Assembly (NCBI GenBank): GCA_937859105.1
Contig: CALMAD010000130.1
Coordinates: forward strand, 1-14,962
Direction: 5' to 3'
Origin: an uncultured Propionibacteriaceae bacterium
Lineage (GTDB): Bacteria > Actinomycetota > Actinomycetes > Propionibacteriales > Propionibacteriaceae
DNA length: 14,962 nt
How positions within the stretch are numbered: position 1 is the first letter of the stretch; each line of letters opens with the position of its first letter. The position numbers were made by a program, and so were the translations under genes. The notes under the pieces are model-generated. The model had not been told where the DNA came from, made no database searches, and worked only from the letters and a program-made list of their open reading frames with translations. Below are positions 1 through 4,151 of the stretch, one piece after another.

Positions 1-146
1 AAACGCCTGCAGCGTTTCCACAACGCCTGCCTCCGGCGAGAACGCTGCCTTACGTAAGGCAGCGTTCCGGCTTAAGCCCGGCGTTTCGAGAACGCCTGCA
101 GCGTTTGCGAAAGACCTGCAGCGTTTCGCAAATGCCTGCAGCGTTC
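1..146 (-). repeat. Left hairpin-repeat array (partial at window edge)
   Basis: The stretch holds about seven units of roughly 20 bp. Read on the minus strand, the commonest unit is AACGCTGCAGGCGTTTCG plus 2-3 variable bases. Each unit is an imperfect hairpin with AAACGC and GCGTTT arms around TGCAG. Two units have other centres: GGCTTAAGCC (69-78) and a perfect 26-bp palindrome (41-66). Positions 37-106 match 3054-3123 in inverted orientation with a single difference in 70 nt. The array starts 46 nt beyond the argJ stop codon and continues past base 1, so its full length is unknown. No ORF, transposase or terminal repeat accompanies it. A dispersed intergenic hairpin element, like REP/BIME elements in other bacteria, is the best description; its function is unknown. 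Confidence 0.85.
41..66. repeat. Perfect 26-bp palindrome inside left array
   Basis: Each 13-nt arm reads AACGCTGCCTTAC, and the two arms meet at the central ACGT. An identical copy lies at 3094-3119. It keeps the AACGC/GCGTT ends of the array units but replaces the short TGCAG loop with a fully self-complementary centre. It could be a cruciform or hairpin, or a binding site for a dimeric protein. Confidence 0.9.
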
Positions 147-171
147 CCGCCCGCACACCCGGACGCCCACC

Positions 172-188
172 CGTCGCGCGGAGCGACG
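172..188 (-). terminator. Hairpin just after argJ stop
   Basis: CGTCGC (172-177) and GCGACG (183-188) form a 6-bp stem with a 5-nt loop, four bases beyond the argJ stop codon on the minus strand. No T-run follows, which is common for actinobacterial terminators. It is a weak candidate, and the hairpin array just beyond could do the same job. Confidence 0.35.
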
Positions 189-192
189 AACC

Positions 193-1341
193 CTACGTCG
201 TGTAGTCGGCGTTGATGTGGATGTACTCCTCGGTGAGGTCACATCCGTAGGCGGTGAACGTGCCGTCGGCGACACCGAGGTCGACGGCGATCACGACCTC
301 GTCGCCCTCGAGGTACTCGCGCAGCGCGTCGAGCCGCTCGGGGTTCACCGCGCGCGGGTACAGCTCGTTGTCGCCGAACTTGATGGTGACGTTCCTGGGC
401 TTGATGTCGGTCTGGTCCTCGCACTTGCCGATCGCCATCGCGACGCGGCCCCAGTTGGGGTCGGTGCCGTACACGGCGGTCTTCACCAGCGGGGAGTTCA
501 CGATCGACTTCGCGATGATCCGGGCCTGGGACTCGTCGCGCGCGCCCGTGACGTCCACCTCGATGAGCTTCGTCGCGCCCTCGCCGTCGGCGGCGATCAT
601 CTTCGTCAGGGCGAGCGCGGCGTCGAAGAATGCGGCCTCGAACTCAGCGAGGTCCACCTCGCCGGCCAGCCCGTTCGCGATCACGCAGGCGGTGTCGCTG
701 GTCGAGGTGTCCCCGTCGACGCTCACCGCGTTGTACGTCTTCGCGACGATGCGGCGGAACATGGCGTCCAACTCCGCGGCCGGGACGGCGGCGTCCGTGA
801 AGAAGTACGACAGCATCGTCGCCATGTTCGGCTCGATCATGCCGACGCCCTTGGCGATGCCGACGATCACGGCGTCCCCGACCTGGCGCACCTGGAGCTT
901 CGAGATCGTGTCCGTCGTCCGGATCGCGGTCGCGGACGCCTCGAAGTCGGCCGGCCCGGGCGCGGGGAGGGCGTCCATGCCGGCGCGCAGCGTCTCCATC
1001 GGGTACTGGACGCCGATCACGCCCGTCGACGCGATCAGCAGCTCTTCGGGAGCGCAGCCGACAAGCTTCGCCGCCCGCTCGCGCACCTCGCGCGCGTTCG
1101 CGAGTCCCTGCTCGCCCGTCGCGACGTTCGCGTTCTTCGACAGCGTGACGACGCCGCGGAAGCGGGAGGCGTCCTCGGAGCGGTTCAGCAGCACGCTCGG
1201 CCCGGCGAACAGGGACTGCGTGTAGACGGCGGCGGCCGTCGTGCCGGGCTCGGCCGAGGCCAGCAGCATGAAGTCGGTGGCGTCCTGCTTGAGGCCGACG
1301 CAGGCGGTCAGGCCGACGAATCCCTGGGGCGCGAGGGTCAT
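193..1341 (-). CDS. argJ: Bifunctional glutamate N-acetyltransferase / amino-acid acetyltransferase ArgJ
   Basis: ArgJ moves the acetyl group from N-acetylornithine to glutamate, so it closes the acetyl cycle of arginine biosynthesis; many forms also make N-acetylglutamate from acetyl-CoA. The product is 382 aa, within the usual range for the family. The self-cleavage site is clear: in the PNMATML stretch the precursor is cut before Thr175, which becomes the nucleophile of the beta chain. STGVIG (105-110) and DGDTSTSDT (about 209-217) are further family motifs, and the C-terminus ends in the typical NADYTT. I chose the ATG at 1341 because GGAG lies 5 nt upstream; an in-frame GTG at 1377 would add 12 unconserved residues. 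It follows the lipoprotein gene on the same strand after a 67-nt gap. No argC or argB is visible next to it, although most actinobacteria keep these together; argB could lie beyond the left edge. Confidence 0.96.
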   Translation of the reverse strand: MTLAPQGFVGLTACVGLKQDATDFMLLASAEPGTTAAAVYTQSLFAGPSVLLNRSEDASRFRGVVTLSKNANVATGEQGLANAREVRERAAKLVGCAPEELLIASTGVIGVQYPMETLRAGMDALPAPGPADFEASATAIRTTDTISKLQVRQVGDAVIVGIAKGVGMIEPNMATMLSYFFTDAAVPAAELDAMFRRIVAKTYNAVSVDGDTSTSDTACVIANGLAGEVDLAEFEAAFFDAALALTKMIAADGEGATKLIEVDVTGARDESQARIIAKSIVNSPLVKTAVYGTDPNWGRVAMAIGKCEDQTDIKPRNVTIKFGDNELYPRAVNPERLDALREYLEGDEVVIAVDLGVADGTFTAYGCDLTEEYIHINADYTT

Positions 1342-1408
1342 GATGGCTCCATCGTTGAGGCGTGATGTTGGAGTCACTCTTGCACAGGCGGGGTGCCTCG
1401 GTGGCGGC

Positions 1409-2200
1409 TCATTCGCACCCGCGCAGCGGGGCGGCCATGATCTCGTCGGTTCGCGATCCCGACGAGTCGTTCCAGAAGTAGTAGACGCCGTTGCCGAGGT
1501 CGCTGTAGTCGCCTGAGTTCTCGAACATGGTCTCCATGCTGATGTTCGGGTACCGCTTCCGGAGCTTCTGGTACGTCGTCCGGAGGGGGAGACCGCTGGC
1601 CAGCGACACCCCCGCCGGCAGGCCCTTGCTCGGCGTCACGAACCACCCGTAGAGGTACATCTTGCTGGTCTTCGTCGCCTGCTGAGACTCGAACCCGACC
1701 GACAGCCCCTTCCAGACGAGGTGCCGGGCCCAGCGCGGGTCCATGGGGCAGCCCTCGTCTTCGAACACCTTGGTGGGTTTGCCGAGCTTGGCGCGCAGGT
1801 CGTCCTCGATGGCCTTGTAGTGCTCCCCGAAGCGGTGGTTGCCGACGGACTTCTTCTGCAGCACGATGCCGGACGCCGCCGGCGTCGCGGTCGTCGTGCC
1901 CGACGACCCGGAGCCGCTGGACGTGGAGCCCGTGGAGCCCGAACCCGTGGAGCCGGACGACCCGGACGATCCGGACCCCGACCCTCCGGACGCCCGCGTC
2001 GTCCCGCCCTCGGTGATGGTCACGGTGCTGGCACCGGGGGCCGCGCCGGGCGCGGCCGTCTCGGTGACGACGACGGTCGTCACCGGTTCGGGAGCCGCCA
2101 CCGGAGCCGGCAGCCCCGGCACCTGCGCGCACGCCGACAGGAGCAGCCCGCCGGTCAGGAGGGCGGCGATCCGTCGTGGTCGGGTTCGCTGGGTGGTCAT
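1409..2200 (-). CDS. Secreted lipoprotein with Ser/Gly-rich linker (lipoprotein 1)
   Basis: The 263-aa product begins with basic residues, a hydrophobic stretch and a lipobox LSAC, with Cys24 as the lipidated residue, so it should be anchored to the outer face of the membrane. Residues 37-110 are low-complexity (Val/Thr then Ser/Gly repeats) and probably form a flexible linker. The globular part (about 111-263) begins HRFGEHYKAIEDDLRAKLG and contains a Trp/Tyr/Phe-rich core. Cys151 and the near-terminal Cys262 could pair in a disulphide. This resembles a family of small actinobacterial surface lipoproteins of unknown function, and I cannot name a ligand. The ATG at 2200 has GGAGG about 6 nt upstream. 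The gene diverges from a TetR regulator and carries a dyad near its -35. The start of the mature protein (C-x-x-P-G-L then TVxV) resembles the lipoprotein at 10287-10952. Confidence 0.9.
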   Translation of the reverse strand: MTTQRTRPRRIAALLTGGLLLSACAQVPGLPAPVAAPEPVTTVVVTETAAPGAAPGASTVTITEGGTTRASGGSGSGSSGSSGSTGSGSTGSTSSGSGSSGTTTATPAASGIVLQKKSVGNHRFGEHYKAIEDDLRAKLGKPTKVFEDEGCPMDPRWARHLVWKGLSVGFESQQATKTSKMYLYGWFVTPSKGLPAGVSLASGLPLRTTYQKLRKRYPNISMETMFENSGDYSDLGNGVYYFWNDSSGSRTDEIMAAPLRGCE

Positions 2201-2248
2201 GGCATCCTCCGTGCTTCGGGGTCCCGCTCGTCCGGGCCTGGCGTCCCG

Positions 2249-2254
2249 ACCGTA
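2249..2254 (-). promoter_or_regulatory. Putative -10 box of lipoprotein 1
   Basis: TACGGT on the minus strand fits the TAnnnT pattern seen at other starts in this window. It would give a leader of about 40 nt that includes the GGAGG ribosome-binding site. No convincing -35 hexamer is visible; the GCGACA/TGTCGC dyad lies where one would be expected or just upstream. Confidence 0.45.
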
Positions 2255-2276
2255 GGACGCCGGCGGCGCAGGTCGC

Positions 2277-2290
2277 GCGACAACTGTCGC
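2277..2290. promoter_or_regulatory. GCGACA-AC-TGTCGC dyad between lipoprotein 1 and tetR
   Basis: A perfect 6-bp inverted repeat with a 2-bp spacer, in the 244-bp gap between divergent genes, just upstream of the putative lipoprotein promoter. A further GCGACAG half-site is at 2363-2369, nearer the TetR gene. The same heptamer appears twice in a dyad upstream of lipoprotein 2 (10983-11014). It is a plausible operator. The adjacent TetR protein is one candidate binder, but a global envelope-stress regulator is equally possible. Confidence 0.5.
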
Positions 2291-2444
2291 TAAAAGCCAG
2301 CAGGTCCCGCGCCCTGCGGAGAAACCCCTGGTGAACGGGCGCTGCGCGAGCCAGGGAACCGCGCGACAGTGGGCGTCCGGAGTAGGGGCTGACGCGCACC
2401 GCGGCCGTGAGACAATGAATCAGAACTGACGGACGGAGGAGCGC

Positions 2445-2999
2445 ATGGCTCGACCGAGGACGGTCACCCGCGAAGACGTGGACGCGGTGGCCCTCGACCT
2501 TTTTCTCGACCGCGGCTTCGCGGCCGTCACGGGTCAGCAGCTCGCGACCGCGGCGGGGATCTCCCGGCCGACGCTATATCGGCTCGTCGGCCGCATCGAA
2601 GACATCGTGCTCGACCAGCTCGACGGCAGCCTCGAGGACCTGCTCGGAGCGGTGCGGCTGTCTGCGGGTCCGCCGTGGCGGGTGCTGCGGGACGCCTTCG
2701 TCGGCGTCCTCGAGGTCGTCGAGCCGGGCTCGCCGCGGGCCAAGGCGCTCACGGTGCTGCAGCGGAACCCCGATATCCGGGCGGACGCCCTGCGCATGAC
2801 CCGGCCGGTGCGGCTGCGCCTGGCCGGCGTCCTGGCGGACCGGGGCGACTACGGCGGCGACGCGGCCCTCTGCGAGACCGCCGCTGCCCTGGCGCTCGCG
2901 CTGCTGCAGATGACGATCGCCCGCCCGGACGCCACCTCCGCCATGCTCGCCGACGCGTTCGACGCCGCCGCGTCCGTGCTCGGGTCGGCCGGGGAGTAG
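2445..2999 (+). CDS. TetR/AcrR-family transcriptional regulator
   Basis: The 184-aa product has the size and layout of a one-domain TetR repressor. Residues 8-50 form the N-terminal helix-turn-helix; the stretch LATAAGISRPTLYRLVG matches the conserved recognition region, including the TLYR element. The rest is the helical ligand-binding and dimerisation domain, whose sequence does not reveal a ligand. The ATG at 2445 is preceded by GGAGG 5-7 nt upstream, and GACAAT at 2411-2416 could be its -10. It diverges from lipoprotein 1 and shares a control region that holds a dyad and an extra half-site, so control of itself and of the lipoprotein is likely but unproven. The second hairpin array begins 34 nt after its stop. 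Confidence 0.93.
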   Translation: MARPRTVTREDVDAVALDLFLDRGFAAVTGQQLATAAGISRPTLYRLVGRIEDIVLDQLDGSLEDLLGAVRLSAGPPWRVLRDAFVGVLEVVEPGSPRAKALTVLQRNPDIRADALRMTRPVRLRLAGVLADRGDYGGDAALCETAAALALALLQMTIARPDATSAMLADAFDAAASVLGSAGE

Positions 3000-3033
3000 G
3001 AGCGCGCCTGCGTTGTGCGCCCGCCCCGTGCCG

Positions 3034-3204
3034 GAACGCTGCAGGTGTTTGTGAAACGCTGCAGGCGTTCTCGAAACGCCGGGCTTAAGCCGTAACGCTG
3101 CCTTACGTAAGGCAGCGTTCTCGATTAAGGCAGGCGTTTCGACAACGCTGCAGGCGTTTCGCGGTTTACTGCAGGCGTTTCGAGAACGCTGCAGGCGTTT
3201 CGCC
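3034..3204 (+). repeat. Right hairpin-repeat array (inverted copy of the left array)
   Basis: Eight or so units of 20-21 bp follow one another, with consensus AACGCTGCAGGCGTTTCGnn on the plus strand; CTGCAG recurs at 3039, 3059, 3148, 3169 and 3189. Two central units have different cores: GGCTTAAGCC at 3082-3091 and the perfect 26-bp palindrome at 3094-3119. Positions 3054-3123 are the reverse complement of 37-106 except for one base (T at 3093). The right part has three more CTGCAG units, so the copies differ in unit number outside the core. The repeats lie in the 3' flank of tetR, in a convergent intergenic region, and have the same polarity relative to tetR as the left array has to argJ. 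Confidence 0.88.
3094..3119. repeat. Perfect 26-bp palindrome inside right array
   Basis: Identical to the palindrome at 41-66. The arms read AACGCTGCCTTAC. Exact conservation of a sequence this long inside otherwise variable units suggests selection or very recent copying. Confidence 0.9.
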
Positions 3205-3339
3205 CAAACCCGGCCCTCCAGACCCGGACGCCCAGACCCGGCCCCGGGACACCGATCGCCGCCCCATCCGGGCCGCGCTCCCGATGTCGTGCAGTACGGA
3301 CGCCGCTCATGCGTCGCGGCCCGTCCGTGGAGGCGCCGC

Positions 3340-3406
3340 CGCACCGGCCCCTCGCGGGAGGACATGGACTCTCCACGCTGAGAATCCCACCCGGGAGGCC
3401 GGTGCG
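3340..3406. repeat. Long-range inverted repeat, 10-bp arms
   Basis: CGCACCGGCC at 3340-3349 is the exact reverse complement of GGCCGGTGCG at 3397-3406, 47 bp apart. The interior has weak further pairing. It could be a structured transcript or the remains of an element's ends. Confidence 0.45.
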
Positions 3407-3494
3407 CGGTCATCCCAAATTAGGACGATTCGACCTCGACGACAATCCTCACGGTGACTAAAAACCCTTGCCAGGACGCCTTCGCGGCCCGGCG

Positions 3495-3512
3495 CGTGGG
3501 CGCCGGCCCACG
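3495..3512 (-). terminator. Candidate terminator hairpin of the DUF2231 gene
   Basis: CGTGGGC (3495-3501) pairs with GCCCACG (3506-3512) around a 4-nt loop, about 55 nt past the DUF2231 stop on the minus strand. No T-run follows directly. It overlaps the first copy of the direct repeat at 3508-3540. Confidence 0.35.
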
Positions 3513-3540
3513 GGTGCGCCCCGGTCCACGGGTGCGCCCC
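3508..3540. repeat. 15-bp direct repeat, two copies
   Basis: CCACGGGTGCGCCCC occurs at 3508-3522 and again at 3526-3540, 3 bp apart. It is probably a local duplication. Confidence 0.7.
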
Positions 3541-3566
3541 CGGCGCTGTCGGCGTCAGGCCCCGCC

Positions 3567-4151
3567 TCACGCGTAGTGGTGCTCTTCGTCCTCGCCGGGG
3601 GCGTCGGTGCGGTCGCTGAGGAAGACGGCCTCGGGCTGCGGGCCCTGCGAGAGCTCGCCGCCCAGGACGCCTGCCGCTGTGTACGCGGCCGCCGACCCGA
3701 ACAGCAACAGCCGCGCCAGGCCGTGGGAGCCACCCGTGCGGGCCAGGAGCGACAGGAGCGCGAGCGTCGTCCCGCTGCCCGCGCACACGGCGTGCGCCGC
3801 CCCGACGCGGCGGTCCTCGTCGGTGTCGCGGCGGGCCGCCCAGTCGGCCAGACCGGTGAGCGCGGCCGGGGCCGCGCCGGCGACGACGACGCCCGTGGCG
3901 AGGGCTGTCGCGAGCCGGAGGCGTCCGAGACCCAGAATCTCTAGGGACGCCGCCGTGAGCGCCCCGCCGATCGGCAGGTGCACGAGCGCCGGGTGCAGCG
4001 GGTGGCCGGTCGGCTGGGCGGCGAGCGCCTCCGACAGGCCCGGCGTCTCCGCGATCTTCTCGGCGGCCTGGCGCAGCGGCCGGGCGACCTGGTCGATCTT
4101 CTCGGTGCGCGGAATCTGGTCGAGCAGGTCGCGGACGGGGTTCTCGGACAT
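3567..4151 (-). CDS. DUF2231-domain integral membrane protein
   Basis: The 194-aa protein has a charged amphipathic N-terminus (1-47) and then the DUF2231 signature GHPLHPALVHLP at about residues 49-60, with His50, His53 and His58. About four hydrophobic segments follow (near 59-75, 80-100, 118-137 and 146-166), and the tail is acidic and His-containing. Members of this family often sit near redox or cytochrome-like genes, but no reaction is established. The ATG at 4151 has AAAGGAG 6-7 nt upstream, and CAGGAT at 4176-4181 on the minus strand is a likely -10. The gene is convergent with tetR and divergent from azlC, and appears to be monocistronic. Confidence 0.88.
   Translation of the reverse strand: MSENPVRDLLDQIPRTEKIDQVARPLRQAAEKIAETPGLSEALAAQPTGHPLHPALVHLPIGGALTAASLEILGLGRLRLATALATGVVVAGAAPAALTGLADWAARRDTDEDRRVGAAHAVCAGSGTTLALLSLLARTGGSHGLARLLLFGSAAAYTAAGVLGGELSQGPQPEAVFLSDRTDAPGEDEEHHYA

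Follow-up and report, generated by a model that had tools for sequence, protein, structure and literature searches.

Dispersed palindromic arrays with regularly pitched outer units in a Propionibacteriaceae genome, and the same design in another genus of the family

Between the genes of an uncultured Propionibacteriaceae bacterium lies a dispersed repeat, noncoding and ~100 to 250 bp in size, in which a palindrome is flanked by short units set at a regular pitch. Two copies occur in the 14,962-nt stretch analyzed here (the window), which is the whole of contig C130 (CALMAD010000130.1) of assembly G000 (GCA_937859105.1; 486 contigs, 2.6 Mb, 74% complete). The design is conserved: outer sites recur at 19 to 21 bp (~two helical turns), many copies are present per genome, each species or species group has a sequence of its own, and related species differ in the sites occupied. 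Our preferred reading, which we hold with somewhat less than even confidence, is that these arrays are small, nonautonomous, dispersed palindromic repeats resembling repetitive extragenic palindromic (REP) elements and miniature inverted-repeat transposable elements (MITEs) and built of phased protein sites; mobility, a mover, and a bound protein are what we infer.

The two window arrays (Table 1) are inverted relative to each other. Positions 37 to 106 and 3054 to 3123 are reverse complements with exactly one mismatch (C versus A at window position 67), as a preliminary description of this DNA had reported, and the extended inverted pair (1 to 128 and 3032 to 3159) shows 89% identity. Neither array overlaps a called gene, in agreement with the intergenic placement claimed there. 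All three proposed kinds of unit center were seen; the GGCTTAAGCC unit, however, forms an imperfect inverted pair with its opposite partner. The array is better described as a palindrome with a single inverted neighbor on each side and tandem outer units beyond. The statement that every unit keeps AACGC/GCGTT arms fails within the window for four units (111 to 125, 131 to 145, 3035 to 3049, and 3165 to 3179), and both arms are exact in just 30 of the 58 outer units of the 12 palindrome-bearing copies in the genome.

The element proved to be multicopy. When two mismatches were allowed, AACGCTGCAGGCGTT gave 67 matches in the 2.6 Mb of G000, against 1 for the reversed control pattern, which puts the repeat well outside chance; the 70-base stretch at 41 to 110 gave 27 BLAST matches. 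The 18-nt palindrome CTGCCTTACGTAAGGCAG was found at 12 places on 11 contigs (exact in 10 listed copies and in C420 and C443), so that the core is not confined to the two places in the window. Three further arrays, on C97, C232, and C289, have no palindrome in the assembly, which brings the total to 15; the count leaves out two single matches, one lying within a called gene on C173 and the other a lone unit on C87. Several arrays are truncated at a contig end (C130 array A, C307, and C232) or lie within ~60 nt of one (C136 and C289), and the assembly therefore probably breaks at the repeat. The earlier suggestion of a dispersed, ordered element outside the described classes is thus supported, with many copies in G000 and no named family matched.

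Each copy follows the same lattice: a 26-bp palindrome, inverted neighbors at ~22 nt, and zero to five outer units per side at 20 to 21 nt. A free scan of the 12 palindrome-bearing copies placed the left outer units at −44.5, −64.5/−65.5, and −84.5/−85.5 from the palindrome center and the right ones at +44.5, +64.5/+65.5, +85.5, +105.5/+106.5, and +126.5; in three copies it also caught the right neighbor, at +24.5, and two matches, at −151.5 and +115.5, were stray. By these offsets, the outer-unit step was 20 in 25 of 36 cases and 21 in 11. C420 has no right-side outer unit, and C321 has a single diverged one that the scan missed. The imperfect inverted partners AACGCCGGGCTTAAGCCGG and CTCGCCGAAGGCAGGCGTT, or variants of them, flank the center. 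In all 12 copies the palindrome is bordered by the four bases CCNN at one end and by CTCG (GCGG once) at the other.

Although the units had been introduced as hairpin repeats, the outer ones are better kept as fixed-pitch sequence than as hairpins; paired changes were seen in the central palindrome only, where controls were mixed. Outer units were selected at ≥8 of 11 matches over columns 5 to 15, leaving columns 1 to 4 alone unbiased by selection. CTGCAG is exact in 55 of the 58 units, columns 5 to 11 and 14 to 15 are identical in 56 to 58 of them, and columns 1 to 4, 12, and 13 are identical in 42 to 49. A 5-bp stem, with G-T pairs allowed, can form in 37 of 58. Where arms have degenerated, to TTTA or GGTCTT, the opposite arm shows no matching change, and the outer units therefore look like double-stranded DNA sites. 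In the palindrome of C136, by comparison, both ends have changed together (TTCGC...GCGAA). The region at 3030 to 3205 folds as RNA at −101 kcal/mol (z = −8.8), and as DNA the element folds into a like single long hairpin (z = −9.35), in both cases because the layout is inverted.

To the window's species, among the genomes searched, the sequence itself is limited: the 70-base stretch had no match in 56 relatives, and the palindrome, at up to one mismatch, was absent from 197 other genomes of the family, including 12 of the window's genus. The preliminary description had raised possible family specificity; by sequence the repeat is narrower than that, and by design it is shared with a second genus of the family (group g29), in no fewer than four species. 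Alignment A1 comprised 11 of the 12 palindrome-bearing copies, with C307 left out, and a covariance model from 11 copies was searched in the 197 family genomes under stricter filters with 19 candidates scored per genome. The model recovered the window species' own copies and three places in the g29 genome G080 (E = 2.2e-4 to 6.9e-4 per genome), at a cutoff where ~0.2 genomes would be expected by chance. The G080 places are arrays of TTCGCCTGCCTTG units at 20 nt, with facing units opposite and a palindrome with a 6-nt loop between. The sequence AACGCCTGCCTT, present in 4 of 11 right neighbors of the window's family, matches the TTCGCCTGCCTTG unit at 10/12.

Core doublets traced the design further. 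Besides G000, the carriers are G080, G081, G073, and G097 (95 to 100% complete) and, by eye, G071 (84%). Matches to CGCCTGCN13-14CGCCTGC, against control, numbered 62 and 0 in G080, 17 and 0 in G081, 17 and 6 in G073, 5 and 0 in G097, and 29 and 6 in G000. At least one match occurred in 132 of the 197 genomes, mostly around control level, with slight excesses in G011 (6 and 1), G189 (5 and 0), G175 (5 and 1), G083 (4 and 0), and G161 (4 and 0); the G011 doublets come from a 7-bp microsatellite, and in G083 the listed sites stand alone. The stricter CGCCTGCC doublet, across 391 genomes of the order, gave 62 and 0 in G080, 16 and 0 in G081, 12 and 1 in G073, and 4 and 0 in G097; G000 scores 0 because its own core is CGCCTGCA. 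The CGCCTGCC doublets of G235 (17 and 2) and G241 (13 and 2) were rejected as tandem microsatellites or a 20/47-nt satellite. A single array in G071 was recognized by eye. Steps are mostly 19 to 20 in G080 and G081 and 19 to 21 in G073 and G097. The patchy occurrence of the design in two genera may, from the sequences compared, reflect common descent or convergence. Tandem 7-bp CGCCTGC microsatellites that mimic the doublet were located at G011:C21:154849, G235:C3:3266, and G241:C1:6858743. Outside the family, one locus resembles the design: at ~1440 to 1580 of L267 (G263, another family of the order), three 20-nt tandem units GGGAACCCACCACGGCAGGC adjoin a long inverted repeat that is made up of the same words.

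For pairing at the g29 center, 40 places were fetched, 39 were examined, and 36 were kept: L189 (a single core) lay outside the examination, and L176, L192, and L206 were dropped when no intact center was found. The center was picked by a score rewarding pairing and core likeness, which inflates by choice the pairing frequency there (84.0% of 374 cells, versus 78.8% when shuffled and 31 to 37% when slid). The covariation score was 0.226 against 0.142 shuffled (reached by 0 of 500 shuffles), and 33 cells had changed on both sides, against 22 (3 of 500). Pairs with change on both sides numbered 6 against 4.5 (44 of 500). There were 17 further pair types, against 15.9 (168 of 500). One pair is C-G in 21 elements, T-A in 7, and G-C in 2. 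With the controls mixed, few events may be involved in these paired changes.

Swapping halves between elements did not worsen folding in either group. In g29, where the test drew on 27 of the 28 rows left from G080 and G081 (all but L203), the permutation P values were 0.12 (27 elements), 0.87 (21 of type I), and 0.47 (6 of type II); in the window's family, where 10 of the 12 copies were used (C307 and C130 array A left out), they were 0.70 and, with a common center, 0.89. Selection on the whole hairpin finds no support in this test, and the arms accordingly behave as sites. The center is probably kept as a palindrome.

With genes around the G000 arrays called roughly, from codon usage, each of the 15 arrays falls outside them: 4 between convergent, 4 between tandem, and 1 between divergent genes, with 6 known on one side only. 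Across 38 g29 loci as scripted, 14 were convergent, 13 tandem, and 6 divergent, 3 overlapped a called gene, and 2 had one side unknown. Convergent outnumbered divergent settings 18 to 7 in G000 and g29 combined as scripted (two-sided P = 0.043), a count in which L172 and L203 are the same site in two species; at L208 and L191 the script took a cluster other than the fetched array, and those arrays seem convergent and would add to the excess. The neighboring genes encode ArgJ, TetR, DUF2231, glycogen phosphorylase, class I tRNA synthetase (E and Q type), HerA-like helicase, CbiD, AI-2E transporter, and alpha-amylase proteins, and some products have no Pfam match. No theme is common to the flanking genes, and the idea of a regulon was rejected. 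An associated gene was likewise rejected: the widest protein cluster beside arrays covers 6 of 53 loci in three genomes (including an ABC-transporter gene on C144), and the remaining clusters cover 2 or 3 loci each among the 25 of 56 clusters listed.

Array sites differ between related genomes. Contig C1 of G080 runs collinear with contig C35 of G081, at 73 to 90% identity by BLAST piece. Of three G080 elements in a first block, one is present in G081 and two are absent; in a second block the lone element is shared, with the G081 copy (L192, versus L175 in G080) missing 33 central bases. Over both blocks, 2 of 4 G080 elements have no G081 counterpart. Opposite one G080 array, G081:C35:28660-29000 (L213) holds a different inverted sequence of about the same length, CACGAATCGCC...GGCGGTTCGTG, as though unlike hairpin repeats were exchanged between intergenic slots. 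The array-holding spacer between glycogen phosphorylase (GlgP) and class I Glu/Gln-tRNA synthetase is ~665 nt in G000 versus ~86 nt in the relative G009; G009 keeps the stretch adjoining the synthetase start codon, and the extra DNA of G000 also holds other sequence and another hairpin repeat.

TABLE 1 Units of the two arrays in the window
Feature	Positions	Strand
Array A: three outer units, neighbor, palindrome, inverted neighbor, one outer unit; truncated by contig start	1..145	-
Array A, outer unit AACGCTGCAGGCATT	131..145	-
Array A, outer unit AACGCTGCAGGTCTT, right arm altered	111..125	-
Array A, outer unit AACGCTGCAGGCGTT	91..105	-
Array A, neighbor unit AACGCCGGGCTTAAGCCGG	67..85	-
Array A, central 26-bp perfect palindrome AACGCTGCCTTACGTAAGGCAGCGTT	41..66	no strand
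Array A, inverted neighbor CTCGCCGGAGGCAGGCGTT	22..40	-
Array A, second AACGCTGCAGGCGTT outer unit	2..16	-
Array B: two outer units, neighbor, palindrome, inverted neighbor, three outer units	3035..3199	+
Array B, outer unit AACGCTGCAGGTGTT	3035..3049	+
Array B, outer unit AACGCTGCAGGCGTT	3055..3069	+
Array B, neighbor unit AACGCCGGGCTTAAGCCGT	3075..3093	+
Array B, central 26-bp perfect palindrome	3094..3119	no strand
Array B, inverted neighbor CTCGATTAAGGCAGGCGTT	3120..3138	+
Array B, outer unit AACGCTGCAGGCGTT	3144..3158	+
Array B, outer unit TTTACTGCAGGCGTT, left arm lost	3165..3179	+
Array B, outer unit AACGCTGCAGGCGTT	3185..3199	+

Other repeats share this intergenic space. A second dispersed hairpin repeat with the core CTACCTGACGTTCTCCAC has 57 matches in G000 at up to two mismatches (control, 0) and 6 two-mismatch matches in 3 of the 12 other genomes of the genus. 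It occupies the same intergenic region as 4 of the 12 palindrome-bearing arrays; its sites, outside the window, include L058:2503-2560, L065:6573-6620, L067:3204-3250, L059:2835-2880, and L072:6409 and 6943. The same CCCGCA hexanucleotide microsatellite directly precedes two arrays (L059:2413-2457 and L063:1155-1212). In the window and 15 other G000 contigs, the heptamer GGCGTCC occurs at 5.0 per kb in genes and 6.5 per kb between them, and permuted heptamers at 0.2 to 1.2; in pieces of the 12 genus relatives it reaches 1.9 to 4.8 per kb versus 0.8 to 2.3 for GGTCGCC, being raised in most and barely so in G002, G010, and G008. In a protein collection, the window's ArgJ (196 to 1341) falls among 15 sequences, from 9 contigs, that cluster at 99% identity, with the next matches at 60 to 69%; from this cluster, the window's species may be present in several metagenomes. 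ArgJ also has matches in Nocardioides, in keeping with the order Propionibacteriales.

Comparison with named families and mobile DNA gave no relative of the repeat. Rfam 15 returned nothing above gathering score for the window and five further loci, sequence strings taken from the family found no paper in open-access PubMed Central text, and topic searches there brought up nothing on it. No T-run terminator was found at either array in the scan of window positions 1 to 3600. CRISPR (clustered regularly interspaced short palindromic repeats) had already been dismissed, and spacers of 5 to 6 nt around a palindromic center, versus unique spacers of ~30 nt, bear this out; cas genes were not searched. 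An integron attC site had been dismissed as well, and the comparison with it covered anatomy. A viral origin was also rejected: inspection placed neither the 1 viral match of the 18-mer palindrome nor any of the 9 of the CTGCAGG doublet in an array, and the 13 viral matches of the g29 CGCCTGCC doublet had no lattice by eye. One array of either design had no match in a plasmid and phage search. In the GTDB contig collection, the one 20-mer match is a simple terminator-like hairpin in an Oscillospiraceae metagenome-assembled genome. These viral, plasmid, and GTDB contig scans may omit the window's own and near records.

BOX, enterobacterial repetitive intergenic consensus (ERIC), and Correia elements are modular or imperfect palindromes in intergenic DNA, like the arrays here; they belong to other taxa and have other sequences, and we know of none with helically phased tandem sites. 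Iteron arrays at plasmid origins and transposase-site arrays at the ends of Tn7 and Mu are direct or inverted ~20-bp protein sites in register, but such arrays stand next to the replication or transposition genes that they serve and are not known to occur at a dozen or more dispersed places. REP elements, bacterial interspersed mosaic elements (BIMEs), and REP doublets forming hairpins (REPINs) are, according to PMC3733652 and PMC3116915, short, extragenic, multicopy, palindromic, and often species specific; inverted pairs may form larger hairpins, and most lie between tandem or convergent genes. The G000 arrays resemble them in being extragenic, multicopy, inverted, and hairpin forming. They differ in that neither GTAG nor CGTC directly adjoins the palindrome in any of the 12 copies (outer-unit flanks were not tested), in having no Y1 transposase gene in 18 genomes, and in having units at a 20-bp pitch, against the 72 and 112 bp between units of REP tandem arrays described in PMC3116915. 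Prokaryotic MITEs, as reviewed in PMC10969869, are similarly noncoding and dispersed, with inverted halves and no transposase of their own, whereas the arrays have no defined ends, a variable number of inner units, no target duplication seen, and no parent element found.

If the arrays are such nonautonomous repeats, copies would be moved by a recombinase or transposase encoded elsewhere, and the phased cores would let this enzyme, or else an accessory protein, stack along a single face of the helix. The palindrome would form a hairpin or cruciform or act as a dimer site, outer sites would multiply by local tandem duplication, and selection against hits in genes and promoters would leave intergenic copies, with some excess between converging genes. 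Several observations weigh against this. The REP-associated tyrosine transposase (RAYT) idea found no support: a RAYT-type Y1 transposase (PF01797) was found in 0 of 18 genomes, including G000 (74% complete), G080, G081, G073, and G097 (95 to 100%), and G071 (84%) (control positive in 5 of 14; other transposase and recombinase families were not searched). Plasmids, phages, and viral contigs yielded no autonomous relative. Nor was a target-site duplication seen; at the unoccupied sites (the G009 spacer and the G080/G081 blocks) divergence is too great for a clean junction. The flanks of the shared sites L172/L203 and L175/L192 are 89 to 97% identical, above most of the surrounding block, so recent exchange between lineages is possible, and the site sharing between G080 and G081 may reflect such DNA exchange rather than descent or movement. 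The layouts also differ, with outer units in the same direction on both sides in G000 and facing in g29, and the ~20-bp pitch suggests, rather than establishes, protein sites.

The same lattice could instead belong to the host. Fixed sites around a palindrome, on which a chromosome-organizing, partition-like, or nucleoid protein stacks cooperatively, with letters that change per species along with the protein, would account for a regular pitch and center kept in two genera despite different letters, for conserved cores beside variable arms, and for neighboring genes without a theme. We nevertheless consider this unlikely: occurrence is patchy, with the palindrome in 0 of 12 other genomes of the window's genus and with four g29 genomes in which core doublets were confirmed to lie in an array context, sites turn over between G080 and G081, and no candidate protein was identified. 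Still less probable, in our judgment, is an RNA element whose transcribed array folds into a long hairpin that ends or protects neighboring transcripts, as proposed for some REP elements. The RNA fold (z = −8.8), the convergent excess, and the paired changes in the central palindrome speak for it, but DNA folds equally well (z = −9.35), as follows from inverted units, half-swaps do not worsen folding, the window's arrays have no T-run terminator, and at C14 and C321 another hairpin lies between gene and array. Template switching that perfects palindromes and slippage that multiplies 20-bp units could also yield such arrays as a by-product of replication, with neither function nor mover; tandem 40- to 41-nt duplications inside arrays (C384 and L206), the 33 central bases lost in L192 relative to L175, and the concerted change at both ends of the C136 palindrome fit such errors. 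A dozen dispersed copies of the same lattice at unrelated loci are left unexplained by them, and we give this origin an equally slight chance.

The best-known bacterial palindromic repeats, the GTAG REPs, are tied to RAYT transposases. Here, a regular helical lattice occurs in genomes with no Y1 gene among the 18 searched, and its design is common to two genera despite differing letters. Beyond the reading as nonautonomous repeats, it is conceivable, though doubtful, that the arrays represent a new element class in one actinobacterial family, its geometry inherited and its letters rewritten per species, as if the sites coevolve with a fast-changing DNA-binding or recombining protein in a drive- or centromere-like arms race. 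A repeat that moves would imply an undiscovered mover in these actinobacteria, and one that stays in place would point to a sequence-specific protein, yet to be discovered, stacking on the phased sites.

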